Of a DNA stretch of 64,000 nucleotides, positions 21,269 through 27,370 are shown piece by piece; position 1 is the first letter of the stretch; each line of letters starts with the position of its first letter. Made by a program: the position numbers and the translations under genes. The DNA comes from Haloarcula marina. Lineage in GTDB: Archaea > Halobacteriota > Halobacteria > Halobacteriales > Haloarculaceae. The stretch covers positions 2,170,001-2,234,000 of the forward strand of contig NZ_CP100404.1 of assembly GCF_024218775.1 (NCBI RefSeq), read 5' to 3'. Under the pieces are notes generated by a model that was not told where the DNA came from, made no database searches, and worked only from the letters and a program-made list of their open reading frames with translations.

Positions 21269-22309
21269 TCAGTACTCGCGCTCGACGAGGTAGTTCGCGA
21301 TGCCGTCCAAGAGGTCGCGGGCCTCGTTGTCCGGCAGCACTTCGAGGTTCTGCTTCCCGCTTTCGACGAGTTCTTGCGCCTTTTCGCGGGCAAACTCTAT
21401 CGAGCCAGCCTCGCGGAGGGTCGCGACGGCGTCGTCGATTTCGGCTTCCGACACCTCGGCGACGGAGTCGGTGTCGACGAGATTGTCCACGTCGACGCCC
21501 TGTTGGCGCGCGTGGAGCGTGACGAGCGTCTGTTTGTTCTCGACGAGGTCCGAGCCGCGCTGTTTGCCCAGTTTCTCCGAGGGCGTCGTCAGGTCCAGCA
21601 GGTCGTCCTGAATCTGGAACGCGCGGCCAACGTCGAGGCCGTGGTTGTACAGCGCTTCGACCGTCTCGTCGTCCGCGCCGAGGAGCGTGGCCGGGATGGC
21701 CGCCGCCGCGCCGTAGAGGACGGCGGTCTTCAGTTCGACCATCTCCAGGTACTCGTCGGGCGTGACCGCGTCGCGCTGTTCGAACTCGATGTCGAGGGAC
21801 TGGCCCTCGCAGATGCGGGTACACGTCGTCGCCAGTCGCTTGTTCGCGGCGACGGTCCGGCCGTCGGCCGCACCCGTCGAGAGCAGGAACTCGAACGCCT
21901 TCGAGTACAGCGTGTCTCCGGCGAGAATGGCCGTCGAGAGGTCGTACTCCTTGTGGACGGCCGGGACCCCGCGCCGGAGGTCGTCGTCGTCCATGATGTC
22001 GTCGTGGATGAGCGTGAACGTCTGGATGACCTCGATAGCCAGCGCCGCCGACAGCACGTCGGCGTGCCCGCCGTCCAGCCTCGGGAACTCGCGGTAGTCG
22101 GTCGAGAGCGGGTCCACGTCCAAGAGCGACTCCGCGACGAGTAACAGCACCGTCGGGCGAAGTCGCTTGCCGCCAGCGTCCAGCAGGTAGCGGGTCGCCT
22201 CGTAGAGGTGGTCCGGCCGCGTGACCGGCAGTTCCTCCGGCAACGCCTCGTTGACCCGCTCTCGCCGGGCGAGGATGGCGTCTTCGACCTGCTGATGGCG
22301 TTCGGACAT
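21269..22309 (-). CDS. idsA3: Geranylgeranyl/polyprenyl diphosphate synthase
   Basis: Condenses IPP with allylic diphosphates to make the C20 or longer chains of archaeal ether lipids. 346 residues. The first aspartate-rich motif DDIMDDDD is at about 103-110 with LRRG following. GGKRLRP near residue 46 binds diphosphate, and the second Asp-rich motif is QIQDDLLD. Four bases separate it from rnj, and mvk and ipk lie upstream on the same strand, linking it to the alternative mevalonate route. The chain length produced cannot be read with certainty. Confidence 0.92.
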   Translation of the reverse strand: MSERHQQVEDAILARRERVNEALPEELPVTRPDHLYEATRYLLDAGGKRLRPTVLLLVAESLLDVDPLSTDYREFPRLDGGHADVLSAALAIEVIQTFTLIHDDIMDDDDLRRGVPAVHKEYDLSTAILAGDTLYSKAFEFLLSTGAADGRTVAANKRLATTCTRICEGQSLDIEFEQRDAVTPDEYLEMVELKTAVLYGAAAAIPATLLGADDETVEALYNHGLDVGRAFQIQDDLLDLTTPSEKLGKQRGSDLVENKQTLVTLHARQQGVDVDNLVDTDSVAEVSEAEIDDAVATLREAGSIEFAREKAQELVESGKQNLEVLPDNEARDLLDGIANYLVEREY

Positions 22310-22313
22310 AGGC

Positions 22314-23660
22314 TTATTCCGTGAGTTGGATCATGTTGCCGTTACGCGTCACGTGCAGGTCGCGACCGACCTTGTAGCCCTGGTTCTCGGCGAGGTCCAC
22401 GTAGGGCGCGAACCCTTTGAGGCTCTGGTGGGCCGGAATGACGTGCTGGGGCTGGAGCGCTTCCAGCATCTCGTAGTGCCCCTCCTCGCGGAGGTGGCCC
22501 GAGACGTGGATGTCGTCGTAGATGCGCGCGCCCTGCATCCCGAGCAGTTTCTCGGACTGGTAGCGTTGGCCCTCGTTGGTCGGTTCCGGGATGACCCGGG
22601 CCGAGAACAGGACCTTGTCGCCGTTGTCCAGTTCGTACGGCGTCTCGCCGCGGCCCATGCGGGTGAGCATCGCGCGCGGTTCGCCCTGGTGACCCGTGAC
22701 GATGGGCAGGAAGTTCTCCTTACCCTCGTTCATGATGCGCTTGAACGTGCGGTCGACGGACTTGCGGTGGCCGTACATCCCGAGGTCCTCCGGGAAGTCC
22801 ACGAAGTCAAGTCGTTCTGCGGTGCCGGAGTACTTCTCCATCGAGCGACCCAGCAGAACCGGCTGTCGGCCGATGTCGTCGGCGAACTCGACGAGGCTCT
22901 TCACGCGTGCGATGTGGCTGGAGAACGTCGTGGCCACGATGCCGCCGTCGTAGTCCTGAATGCTGTACATCACGTCTTTGAGGTGGCGGCGAGCGACGGA
23001 CTCCGAGGGCGTGCGGCCCTTCCGACCGGCGTTCGTACAGTCCTCGATGTAACAGAGGACGCCGTTACCCTCGCGGCCGATTTCTCGGAATCGGTCCATG
23101 TCGATGGGGTCGCCGATGACCGGCGTGTGGTCCATCCGCTTGTCGAGGCCGTAGACGACCGCGCCCTCGGGTGTGTGGAGGACGGGGTTGATGGCGTCGA
23201 TGATGGAGTGTGTGACGTTGACGAACTCCAGTTCGTTGCGCTCGCCGATAGACATCGTCTCGCCCGCTTCCATCTTCACGAGGTCGTTCTGGACGCCGAA
23301 CTTCTCCTCGCCCTTGATCTGCTGTTTGACGAGTTCGATAGTGAAGGGCGTCGCGACGATGGGAGCGTCGTAGCGATGCGCGAGTTTCGAAATCGCGCCG
23401 ATGTGGTCGAGGTGACCGTGGGTCGGCACGATGGCCTTCACGTCGCCTTCGAGGTCGGACATGACGCGGTCGTCCGGAATCGCGCCCATGTCGATGAGGT
23501 CGAGCGAGTGCATGCGCTCCGTCTCGACGTTGTCGTGAATCAGTACCTTCGAGAGATTGAGGCCCATGTCGAAGATGACGACGTCGTCACCTGCACGGAC
23601 GGCCGTCATCTGACGACCGACAGCCTCGTAACCGCCGATAGTTGCAATTTCGACTTCCAT
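22314..23660 (-). CDS. rnj: Ribonuclease J (archaeal RNase J, beta-CASP metallo-beta-lactamase)
   Basis: A 448-residue metallo-beta-lactamase/beta-CASP RNase. HGHLDHIG (from residue 81) is the zinc motif, and the beta-CASP features [32 protein letters not shown] and [12 protein letters not shown] follow. Archaeal members are 5'-3' exoribonucleases in RNA decay. Start ATG 23660 ([18 protein letters not shown]) is family-typical. The apparent promoter is over 200 bases upstream (see 23885-23910), giving an unusually long leader for a haloarchaeon. Confidence 0.92.
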
Positions 23661-23884
23661 AGTTGTAGCTCCGAGTAGGAGCCGTCCGCGAGCCCGCGGT
23701 CGGAGGTGGCAACGACGGTGTCTGCTGAAACGGCGTCTCTGTTCCGGTGTCGGCGTCGAGGCCATCCGGGTACGCCCGTAGCCTCGCAGCCTGTAGTGGA
23801 AGGGACTCGCGTCCCGACGACTATTCCCCGTCGTCTGCCGGCCGCCGAACCGCGAGTCGCGGGCGGCCGTGCGCTCGGTTATCC

Positions 23885-23910
23885 GACGTTACAACGTCAC
23901 TTCTTAAAAC
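23885..23910 (-). promoter_or_regulatory. rnj promoter with adjacent palindrome
   Basis: Minus-strand TATA-like GTTTTAAG (complement of 23903-23910) is followed by the inverted repeat GACGTT-2-AACGTC (23885-23898). That puts the repeat between TATA and the expected start near 23880. This would leave a leader of about 220 bases before ATG 23660. The leader (23661-23880) has no open reading frame I would call a gene. Confidence 0.5.
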
Positions 23911-23931: not shown

Positions 23932-25563
23932 CTACTCGTCGTCGAGCGCGTCCGACAGCGGGTCCGAATCCGTCTTCACGTCGAACGACTCGACGCCCTC
24001 GTCGGCGAGCGATTCGTCGTCCTCGGATTGGGCGTCGGTCGCTTCCTTCGACTCTCCGCCCTCGCTCGTCGCCGGGTCGTCGAAGATGTCGTCGGCCGTC
24101 CTCGGCTCGTCGTTCTCGCCGAAGAGGTCCGCCGTCGTCCGCGGTTCACTCGTTTCCGTCTCGCTCGATTCCGCCGGGTCGCTGTCGACCGGCGTGTCCC
24201 ACGCCGACTGTGGTGACGAGTCCGTCCCGGTCGCTGTCGTCGTCTCCGTCGCCGCCGTATCGGCAGATTTCGTCGTTTCCGCGCCCTCGTCGTCCCCGGA
24301 ATTCGTCTCGAACTCCGCCGGGTCAGGGGGCGACCACTCCTGCGGTTCGGCCTCTGGCGCGGGGGTCTGCTCCGCCGGGTCCTCTGCGGCGGCGTCGGCA
24401 TCGACAGTCTCCTCGGACGTATCTCCCGTCTCACCGGTCTGCCCGCCGAAGATGTCGTCGACCGTCCGGGCCGTCTCCGCCTCCCCGGCCGCTTCGGCCG
24501 CGTCTGCCTCCGCGGTCGTCTCCGGCGCCGAATCGCCCCACGTATCCGCCGTCACAGATTGGTCGGCGGGTTCGTCCGCAAACTCGTCGCCCGCCTGTTC
24601 GACAGGCCCGTCGTCGGTCTCCGTCGTCTCGGCCGCCGATTCCGTCGGTTCGTCCTCCAGCGGCGCGGCGTCGGTCGATTCGGCGTTCGTCGGTCCGCCG
24701 AAGATACCGCTGGTTTCGGCGGACTCGTCTTCGCCGCCGTCGTCCGCGGATTCCTCGGGCGCATCGGTGGAGACGACCGTCTGCCGGTCGGCAACGGCGT
24801 CGGCTTCCGAGTCGGTCGCGGTGTCGGCGGGACTCTCGGCCGTCGCGGTCGGTTGCGTCTCCGCCGCCGCTGGCTCCGACTCGGTGTCGGCCGCCGGTGT
24901 CGGGTCCGCGCTGTCCGTGCCGTCGTCGGCATCTGTCGGGACGGTCGACGCCTCGGACCTGGCCGGGTCGGGTTCCGCGTCGGATTCGACTGTCTCGCTC
25001 TGCTCGTCGGCTGTCTCGGTGTCCGCGGCCGACGCGGCGAGCGGGTCCGGGGACGCTGGTTCGTCAGTTGTCGGGTCCTCTTCGGACGCGGATTCGGGCG
25101 CGGAGTCCTCGTGCGTCGGGTCCTCCTCTGCCGGTTCGTCGCTCGACTGCTCAGACGCCGGTTCGGGGGCGGATTCGGCTTCGTCGGTGCGCTCGGTCGC
25201 CGCGGCGACACCGGCAGCGGTTCCGGCAGCGGCGGCCGCGGCCGATTCAGACGCACCAGCCGTTTCGGCGGCCGGGGGCGCCGGTCGACTCGCGACGGCC
25301 GCAGTCGTGCCGACCATCGTCGCGTCGGCGACGAGTTTGTGGAGGAGTCCGAACAGGCCGGACAGCGAGAGGAGGACGCCGATGGCGGTGACGGCGATAC
25401 CCAGCAGGGCACGGTTCGTCTCGACGGCGGCCGACGGACCCGGCGACCCGGCGAGGACGAACCCGATACCGACGAACGCGCCGCCGACGACGGCGACGAC
25501 GAGTACGTACCCCACGAAGCGAGCGCCGTAGCGGTAGACATCGGGCAGGCTAACAGCGGACAT
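23932..25563 (-). CDS. Membrane-anchored acidic disordered protein with repeated DDIF motifs
   Basis: 543 residues, family not recognised with confidence. Two transmembrane helices lie at about 16-39 and 52-74, then about 460 residues very rich in Ala, Glu, Asp, Thr, Ser and Pro, predicted disordered and probably cytoplasmic. Short motifs recur in the tail: SGIFGG (285-290), RTVDDIFGG (366-374), RTTADLFGE (475-483) and RTADDIFDD (488-496). Scattered Trp-Pro/Asp motifs (EWSPPDPAEF, SAWDTPVDSD) also occur. It lies between ipk and rnj in a conserved isoprenoid/RNA block. It might be a membrane tether or scaffold, which is inference only. Confidence 0.8.
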   Translation of the reverse strand: MSAVSLPDVYRYGARFVGYVLVVAVVGGAFVGIGFVLAGSPGPSAAVETNRALLGIAVTAIGVLLSLSGLFGLLHKLVADATMVGTTAAVASRPAPPAAETAGASESAAAAAAGTAAGVAAATERTDEAESAPEPASEQSSDEPAEEDPTHEDSAPESASEEDPTTDEPASPDPLAASAADTETADEQSETVESDAEPDPARSEASTVPTDADDGTDSADPTPAADTESEPAAAETQPTATAESPADTATDSEADAVADRQTVVSTDAPEESADDGGEDESAETSGIFGGPTNAESTDAAPLEDEPTESAAETTETDDGPVEQAGDEFADEPADQSVTADTWGDSAPETTAEADAAEAAGEAETARTVDDIFGGQTGETGDTSEETVDADAAAEDPAEQTPAPEAEPQEWSPPDPAEFETNSGDDEGAETTKSADTAATETTTATGTDSSPQSAWDTPVDSDPAESSETETSEPRTTADLFGENDEPRTADDIFDDPATSEGGESKEATDAQSEDDESLADEGVESFDVKTDSDPLSDALDDE

Positions 25564-25637
25564 GGTTCGACAATTGACAACGCCGGTGAAATAGGTTACG
25601 CCGACCGTACCCGCCGCCCCCGCCGATTGGGGTCGGC

Positions 25638-26390
25638 TTACCGCGGTTCCGCGCCGGTCGAATCGATGGTGGTCCCGGGCGACTCGCCCGCGAGGAACGC
25701 CGCCAGCGCCTCGGGACCGAAGACCGACGACGGGCTATCGAGCGCCAGCAACGCTCGCACTTTCCCGGCCATTCCGCCGGACACGTCCGTCGCGTCGCTC
25801 CCGCCGAGCGCGGCCGCCACGTCCGCGAACGCTTCGATTCGGTCGACGACGTCCCCGTCTTCGTCGAGGACGCCCGGAACCGTCGAACAGACGCCGACGC
25901 GAGTCGCGCCGACCGCCGTGGCGAGTTCGACCACGAGTTCGTCGCCGCTGACCACCGTCGCGCCCTCGCCCTCGTGGGCGACGAGGTCACCGTGGAGGAC
26001 CGGGACGAACCCCTCGCCCAAGAGCGTCCGGACCTGTCCGGTCGGGAGCGTGAGCGCCCCGTCGGCGTCCCGCGACGCCGCGGAGAACGGGTGGACCGGG
26101 ACGGCGGGGACGCCCCGTTCTTGCAGGGCGTCGACCACCGCGGCGTTCAGCCGCTTCATCGCGCCGTGAATGGCGGCGACCCCCGCCACGTCGTGTGTGC
26201 CCTGCGTCGTACTCACGCCGTAGTCGGCGGCGTGATGGTGACCGAAACTCCCGCCGCCGTGGACCACCACGAGGTCGTCGGTTCCCGCGGCGACGGCGTC
26301 CGCGGCGGCCGCCAGGGCGTCTTCGTCGACCGTCTCCGGTTCCGCTTTCTCGGTGACGACGCTCCCGCCGAGTTTCAGGACGGTCGTCAT
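25638..26390 (-). CDS. ipk: Isopentenyl phosphate kinase
   Basis: Phosphorylates isopentenyl phosphate to IPP in the alternative mevalonate pathway. 250 residues of the amino acid kinase fold. The N-terminal KLGGSVVTEK binds phosphate, VVVHGGGSFGHHHA contains the catalytic His region, and DVSGGMAGKVRAL lies in the nucleotide-binding end. It overlaps mvk by 4 bases (ATGA), so the two enzymes are co-translated. Confidence 0.93.
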   Translation of the reverse strand: MTTVLKLGGSVVTEKAEPETVDEDALAAAADAVAAGTDDLVVVHGGGSFGHHHAADYGVSTTQGTHDVAGVAAIHGAMKRLNAAVVDALQERGVPAVPVHPFSAASRDADGALTLPTGQVRTLLGEGFVPVLHGDLVAHEGEGATVVSGDELVVELATAVGATRVGVCSTVPGVLDEDGDVVDRIEAFADVAAALGGSDATDVSGGMAGKVRALLALDSPSSVFGPEALAAFLAGESPGTTIDSTGAEPR

Positions 26391-27370
26391 TCGCGCCGGA
26401 CCCCGTCGGTGTCGAGTTCGGCCCGGAACGCCTCGGCGCACCCCGGCGTGTACTTCAGCGCCGTCAGCGAGTCGTCCGTGTCGTCCAGCGCGACGATACA
26501 TCCGCCGCCGCCCGCGCCGGTGAGTTTCGCGCCCATCGCCCCGGCGTCCCGGGCCGCCCACACCATCGAGTCGAGCGACCGCGAGGAGACGCCGAGCGCC
26601 GCCAGCAGGCCGTGATTGAAGTCCATCAACTCGCCGAGCGTCTCGTGGTCGCCAGCGGCCAGTACCGACTCGCCTTCGCGGACCACGTCGCCGATAGCGC
26701 CGACGGTGTCCGCGGCGAAGTCGTACTCCTCGCGGAGACTCCGGACGCCCGCGACGAGTGCGCCCGTGTCGCCCGCACCGCCGTCGAACCCGATGACGAA
26801 CGGCAAGTTACCGACGCCGTCGAGGCGGCGGCAGTCGTCGCCCTCGACGCGGACCACGCCGCCCATCGCCGAGCAGAACGTATCGGCGCGCGAGGCCTGT
26901 CCGTCTTGGACCGCCGATTCGACCCGATAGGCGCGCTCGGCGATTTCCTCGGGCGAAAGTTCGACCCCCAACTCCCGCGTGGCGGCGTCGATAGCCGCGA
27001 CGACGACGGCGGCCGACGACCCGAGTCCCGCGCCGAGTGGGATGTCGCTCTCTATCTCTATCTCGAACCCCGCGTCCGGAGCGTCGGCGGCGTCGCGGAC
27101 CTGCGCGACGGCCTCGTTGACGTACCCCATCGCCGCTTCGAGCAGGGGTTCCGCGGCGTCGACGTCCGGCCGCCCGTCGCCGTCGCCGGTGTACTCGACC
27201 GTGAAGCCGTCGAGTTTCAGGTCATCGGAGTGGATTCGCAACCCCTCGTCTATCTCCGTCGCCGTGACCCGTGCGCGGCGCTCTATCGCGCAGGGGACCG
27301 CTGGCTCACCGTAGACGACCGCATGCTCCCCGAACAGATACACCTTGCCGGGAGCGCTCGACGTAACCAT
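26387..27370 (-). CDS. mvk: Mevalonate kinase
   Basis: Makes 5-phosphomevalonate from mevalonate and ATP. 327-residue GHMP kinase. Motif 1 is SAPGKVYLFGEHAVVYG, motif 2 the ATP loop PLGAGLGSSAAVVVA, and motif 3 MGAKLTGAGGGGCIVAL. The start ATG 27370 is typical (MVTSSAPGKVYLFGEH). It is followed by ipk with a 4-base overlap. A cytochrome P450 lies 63 bases upstream on the same strand. Confidence 0.94.
   Translation of the reverse strand: MVTSSAPGKVYLFGEHAVVYGEPAVPCAIERRARVTATEIDEGLRIHSDDLKLDGFTVEYTGDGDGRPDVDAAEPLLEAAMGYVNEAVAQVRDAADAPDAGFEIEIESDIPLGAGLGSSAAVVVAAIDAATRELGVELSPEEIAERAYRVESAVQDGQASRADTFCSAMGGVVRVEGDDCRRLDGVGNLPFVIGFDGGAGDTGALVAGVRSLREEYDFAADTVGAIGDVVREGESVLAAGDHETLGELMDFNHGLLAALGVSSRSLDSMVWAARDAGAMGAKLTGAGGGGCIVALDDTDDSLTALKYTPGCAEAFRAELDTDGVRRE

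Follow-up and report, generated by a model that had tools for sequence, protein, structure and literature searches.

A predicted membrane-tethered disordered protein with conserved motifs, encoded beside RNase J in Haloarcula marina, as a possible adaptor

Much is known, from eukaryotes and from certain bacteria, about adaptors that are tethered to the membrane, disordered and equipped with conserved motifs. A bacterial example is the C-terminal scaffold of RNase E in the RNA degradosome, which is attached to the membrane, is disordered and contains short conserved binding motifs. In the haloarchaea, CdpA is a known disordered cell-division protein; a limited search of the open-access literature found no haloarchaeal membrane-tethered disordered adaptor with conserved motifs. 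RNase J is an essential RNA-cutting enzyme. Haloarchaea encode no RNA exosome, and their aRNase J, which is without the partner-binding N- and C-terminal extensions of the bacterial enzymes, has RecJ3/RecJ4 as its known binding partner (PMC10470531). The protein described here compares with RecJ4 of the Haloferax RecJ3/4–aRNase J complex in that RecJ4 has likewise been proposed to act via a disordered region; RecJ4, however, has a nuclease-like fold, no membrane anchor and an experimentally demonstrated binding to aRNase J (PMC10470531). Neither a sequence relation nor a common motif was found between the two proteins.

The window analysed is a stretch of 64,000 nucleotides from H. marina (contig NZ_CP100404.1, positions 2,170,001 to 2,234,000 of the forward strand). 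It holds an open reading frame (hereafter the ORF) within the following run of genes and promoter elements:

26387–27370, minus strand: mvk, on the same strand as the ORF
25638–26390, minus strand: ipk, isopentenyl phosphate kinase, the upstream neighbour (NF040647, E = 2e-50)
25589–25599, minus strand: the ORF's own TATA-like promoter element, GTAACCTATTT, of the leaderless type and ending 26 nt before the ATG
23932–25563, minus strand: the ORF, ATG start, 543 aa, a two-helix anchor with an acidic disordered tail
23900–23909, minus strand: the separate promoter (TATA element) of rnj, TTTTAAGAAG
22314–23660, minus strand: rnj, RNase J, 448 aa, a neighbour of the ORF (TIGR00649, E = 4e-125)
21269–22309, minus strand: idsA, the geranylfarnesyl diphosphate synthase gene, on the same strand as the ORF

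The gene order on this one strand is mvk, ipk, ORF, rnj, idsA. A sequence-only reading of this DNA had placed the ORF directly upstream of RNase J, and indeed rnj is the next downstream gene on the same strand, after a gap of 271 nt. Within this gap lie the promoter of rnj itself and a structured leader. The promoter of the ORF has a counterpart in its relatives: GTAAC[AC]TATTT is kept upstream of orthologues from nearly all genera shown, and its end lies about 26 nt from the ATG. Since the ORF and rnj each have a promoter of their own, shared transcription is not needed, which weakens any argument from adjacency. Orthologues with the same layout as the 543-residue protein occur in 12 genera. 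Profile searches of Pfam, NCBIfam and PDB found no domain above noise in the ORF or in its two-helix domain, and no paralogue was found in its own genome (next best match E 0.07). Tetraspanin and DUF5671 were considered as relatives and set aside, the matches being scattered and sub-threshold.

The protein divides into two parts, the second of which bears four copies of a short hydrophobic motif:

25288–25563, minus strand: two-helix membrane domain, residues 1–92 (alignment of 21 divergent members and AlphaFold2)
23935–25287, minus strand: acidic disordered tail, residues 93–543 (composition and AlphaFold2)
24694–24711, minus strand: motif copy 1, SGIFGG, residues 285–290
24442–24468, minus strand: motif copy 2, RTVDDIFGG, residues 366–374
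24115–24144, minus strand: conserved island PRTTADLFGE, residues 474–483, which includes motif copy 3, RTTADLFGE, residues 475–483
24076–24102, minus strand: motif copy 4, RTADDIFDD, residues 488–496

The two membrane helices of the earlier reading are recovered both as two hydropathy membrane segments and as AlphaFold2 helices at residues 7–39 and 45–91, with a pLDDT of about 75–86 over most of their length (seven orthologues modelled). The two-helix domain is alignable over the 12 genera and has a signature of Y12, G34, G62 and a 'KLVAD' stretch (D80) after helix 2, the four numbered residues being invariant. A wider haloarchaeal two-helix family is defined by Y12, G34, G62 and K-[LIV]-[IV]-A-D after helix 2, all of which are present in the ORF protein; in profile A1 the ORF protein, itself a profile member, scores 3e-28, and tail-less proteins of other families score down to 3e-18. 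The mean number of lysines plus arginines is 2.3 ahead of helix 1, compared with 0.8 in the loop, and this charge pattern suggests that both termini of the protein, and hence the tail, are cytosolic.

The tail was described from the sequence as some 460 acidic disordered residues; it comprises 451, of which 30% are D or E and 2% K or R (7 R, 3 K), and AlphaFold2 places 386 residues of the protein below a pLDDT of 50. All four motif copies are present, at a frequency far above chance: RTxxD[IL]F is found three times in the tail (0.0001 expected from shuffled tails), as is [ILV]FG (0.02 expected). Copy 1 corresponds to DEIFGGP or DADIFGGP in the relatives L002 and L003. These two relatives share extra DIFGG copies with H. 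marina, and the multi-copy DDIF layout is confined to H. marina and its nearest relatives; most Haloarcula have a single PR[TA]xDDLFG copy. In a genome-wide search, with arginine codons AGA and AGG outside its coverage, RTxDDxFG and EW[ST]PPDPxEF gave one match each, both in the ORF.

Across species the tail is unalignable except for three islands under protein-level constraint, with the patterns P-x-E-W-[ST]-P-P-D-P-x-E-F, P-R-[TS]-x-[DA]-D-[LI]-F and, at the C-terminus, F-[DE]-x3-D-x-D-P-L-S-D-A-L. The second is the island around motif copy 3 given above; the other two are:

24310–24345, minus strand: conserved island PQEWSPPDPAEF, residues 407–418, the sole genome match to its pattern
23935–23985, minus strand: C-terminal island FDVKTDSDPLSDALDDE, residues 527–543

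Among 14 species, 9/12 columns of the 407–418 island are invariant (seven of them with codon changes), as are 5/10 columns of PRTTADLFGE (four with codon changes) and 9/25 of the C-terminal island, compared with none of the 153 scored columns in residues 93–400. As the invariant residues have mostly undergone synonymous codon changes, selection acts on the protein. The tail motifs are thus conserved, and kept as protein sequence; had they not been, the earlier reading would have lost one of its supports. Conservation of the four-copy motif singled out in that reading is equalled or exceeded by that of EWSPPDPAEF (within 407–418) and of DPLSDALDDE at the C-terminus. Small rises in AlphaFold2 local confidence fall mainly at 401–420, 471–480 and 531–543, which are the islands and well-aligned stretches. 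Over a larger set of 56 orthologues, 27 contain [DE][DE][ILV]A?F[GSDAT], where shuffling predicts 0.67. The motifs vary by genus: EWxPPDPxEF is found only in Haloarcula-type genomes and g21, a [RP]-[TS]-x-E-E-I-A-F-G form (EEIAFG) occurs in g3, g14 and g18, a DDLFA form in part of g13 and of g21, and most genera have the DPL[SA] core close to the C-terminus. The g7 orthologues yielded no recognisable scored motif, and much of g2 yielded only DPL.

The reading that we favour, at a probability of roughly 55%, is that the ORF encodes a membrane-tethered adaptor, a member of the two-helix family that has gained a cytosolic disordered tail. According to this proposal, the helical hairpin would anchor the protein in the membrane with both ends in the cytosol, and the Haloarculaceae member of a widespread haloarchaeal family would have acquired the long acidic chain. 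EW[ST]PPDPxEF, PR[TS]xDDLF and DxDPLSDAL would be held at strictly conserved spots whilst the rest of the chain drifts freely; each motif would most likely bind a folded cytosolic partner, the chain would concentrate one or more proteins at the membrane, and the extra DDIF copies in H. marina may raise avidity. Acidic low-complexity tails evolve easily in halophiles, and the tail could be partly passive.

The distribution of the gene was surveyed in a genome panel that is a sample, absence being judged by six-frame profile searches and a reading of the rnj loci. Within the Haloarculaceae (family f1), 51/82 genomes have the gene between ipk and rnj, a count that leaves out three contig-edge cases; it is present in 46 of the 58 in which ipk and rnj are close and in 5 of the 24 in which they are not. 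The gene keeps its position beside rnj in many genera, and the synteny on which the earlier reading depended is upheld. Conversely, rnj occurs without the gene in 31/82 Haloarculaceae and in all sampled genomes of other families, except for five tail-less cases in family f5. The core cluster mvk-ipk-rnj-idsA mostly exists without the gene: in many families it is contiguous with an ipk-rnj gap of 160 to 430 nt, and in other families rnj lies apart from mvk-ipk. On an RNase J tree the presence of the gene is clustered and needs about nine changes, a few of which are contig-edge misses. Genus g4 keeps the gene with rnj, away from mvk-ipk; g18 and g20 retain it with ipk, and CheF-arch, SDR or other genes are inserted between it and rnj. 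Unrelated genes (for a GIDE-domain membrane protein, CheF-arch and SDR) recur in the ipk-rnj gap, which is thus a frequent insertion site.

Several other features of these loci were recorded. A different membrane protein precedes rnj in some g8, g9 and g19 genomes (L186, L187, L190, L197, L198, L201), at loci that are without the disordered-protein gene; both of the examples tested carry a GIDE domain (PF12483). In family f9 (L115, L117, L118, L127) the ipk-rnj gap is filled by a gene of 314–359 aa, a candidate type 2 isopentenyl-diphosphate isomerase by its appearance. Extra copies of RNase J occur in several Haloarculaceae genomes: a second copy, at another locus and about 83–88% identical to the query, was seen in G013, G048, G056, G064, G076, G085, G089 and others, and G076 has a third.

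The alternative that survives best, although we consider it unlikely, is that the two-helix domain is the working part, a small membrane protein, with the tail secondary and the adjacency to rnj incidental. Tail-less two-helix homologues of about 78–120 aa, ending in ...YK[LI]IADGVxRG, are found in several other families; they share the homologous domain and its conserved residues with the ORF protein, but are without the disordered tail of its own family. Most lie at many unrelated loci, and inspection of these loci revealed no shared neighbour. In five genomes of f5 a tail-less homologue of about 100–112 aa occupies the ipk-rnj interval or adjoins ipk, and the site is thus not defined by a scaffold tail. 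The f5 copies beside rnj group with the other tail-less forms in a tree of the short, 90-residue domain, and the presence of the gene at the ipk-rnj site in f1 and f5 may reflect one ancestral arrival or two. The tail is also variable in length, from about 95 to 565 residues across orthologues, as might be expected if it were secondary. Set against this, the strict protein-level conservation of the islands would be unexpected for a dispensable tail.

A second alternative, which we regard as doubtful, is that the motifs in the tail capture aRNase J, or the RecJ3/RecJ4–aRNase J complex, and so bring RNA decay to the membrane; by analogy this would be a platform like that of the bacterial degradosome, made as a separate polypeptide. 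The earlier reading had likened the layout to a degradosome scaffold, and the general part of that likeness stands, in that the ORF protein is predicted to be membrane-attached and has a disordered chain with short conserved motifs and so might work as the RNase E scaffold does; a specific tie to RNA decay is not supported. The ORF protein differs from the RNase E scaffold in being a separate polypeptide with no nuclease domain (profile searches found none, so that it is neither an RNase nor fused to one), in its helical hairpin in place of an amphipathic membrane helix, and in its tail, whose 7 R and 3 K among 451 residues provide no counterpart to the arginine-rich RNA-binding segments and whose partner binding is putative. 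Consistent with a link to RNase J are the placement of the gene just ahead of rnj, in the same orientation, across many genera, its retention with rnj in g4 although mvk-ipk are gone, the two-helix protein at the same site in f5, and the lack of bacterial-type partner-binding extensions in the haloarchaeal enzyme (PMC10470531). These points are countered by the failure of the gene to accompany rnj in 31 of the 82 Haloarculaceae and nearly all other families, by the separate promoters, by the genes intervening in g18 and g20, by the tail-less state of the f5 form and by the recurrent use of the ipk-rnj gap as an insertion site. In addition, the tail motifs are absent from the six RecJ-type (DHH) proteins found in the genome, among which the true RecJ4 is perhaps not included. 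RNase J is therefore a possible partner that is not favoured by the distribution, the promoter layout or the composition of the tail. It is improbable that aRNase J, with or without RecJ3/4, is held by the motifs on a membrane platform for RNA decay that answers the loss of the exosome in the Haloarculaceae and that arose separately from the bacterial scaffolds. Binding of exosome subunits, which had been suggested as a check, is moot and an exosome scaffold is unlikely, because haloarchaea have no exosome (PMC10470531).

Very doubtful, finally, is a scaffold that gathers mevalonate kinase, IPK and geranylfarnesyl diphosphate synthase at the lipid-making membrane: within the mvk-ipk-rnj-idsA cluster the gene falls between ipk and idsA, g18 and g20 keep it with ipk when it is apart from rnj, and a membrane site would suit prenyl products, but the linkage to mvk, ipk and idsA is not constant, the cluster being complete without the gene in many families and the gene lying away from mvk-ipk in g4, the gene has its own promoter, and there is no motif evidence for MVK, IPK or IdsA.

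The rnj gene has a conserved element of its own, which is independent of the ORF:

23661–23880, minus strand: structured rnj 5' leader, z −4.96, conserved independently of the ORF
23834–23880, minus strand: 8-bp hairpin of the rnj leader, supported by covariation

The leader directly follows the rnj promoter and folds far better than shuffled sequences, as its z score indicates. It begins with AACCGAGC, followed by the hairpin, which is likely to lie at the start of the rnj transcript, as judged from the position of the TATA element. In 54 distinct sequences every position of the hairpin pairs in every case and the loop is variable in length. Changes on both sides of a pair number 24 compared with 6.6 in shuffles (0/500 as high), and pair 4, for instance, is C-G in 34 sequences, U-A in 16 and U-G in 4; the number of pairs with such a change, a less telling measure, is 3 compared with 1.6 (45/500 shuffles). 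No Rfam family matched the leader. A covariance model found the hairpin once in the H. marina genome, and those strong matches that could be placed (in f1, f10 and f8) were all directly upstream of rnj; the hairpin occurs both at loci that have the disordered-protein gene and at those that do not. Furthermore, CCGAG at the leader start (23874–23878) can pair with a CTCGG that precedes the rnj start codon (ATG at 23660) by about 10 nt, which makes a closing helix between the 5' end of the leader and the region beside the start codon possible. Both are invariant in 17 aligned leaders, and in raw counts that include relatedness, 99 rnj loci have both, 22 have neither and 21 have only one. RNase J attacks 5' ends, and structure at the 5' end of the rnj mRNA therefore suggests autoregulation, with the leader as the candidate element.

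If the ORF protein is an adaptor as favoured here, the absence of the tail from homologues in other families implies that this role is lineage-specific. We know of no archaeal membrane platform for RNA decay so far; the ORF protein would be the first if RNase J proved to be its partner. The protein family itself offers candidate bait peptides, namely EWTPPDPAEF, PRTTDDLFGG and DDDPLSDALDDE, and Haloarcula hispanica is genetically tractable. Independently of it, the rnj leader offers a directly testable clue to the way in which an essential RNase of archaea may regulate its own production.
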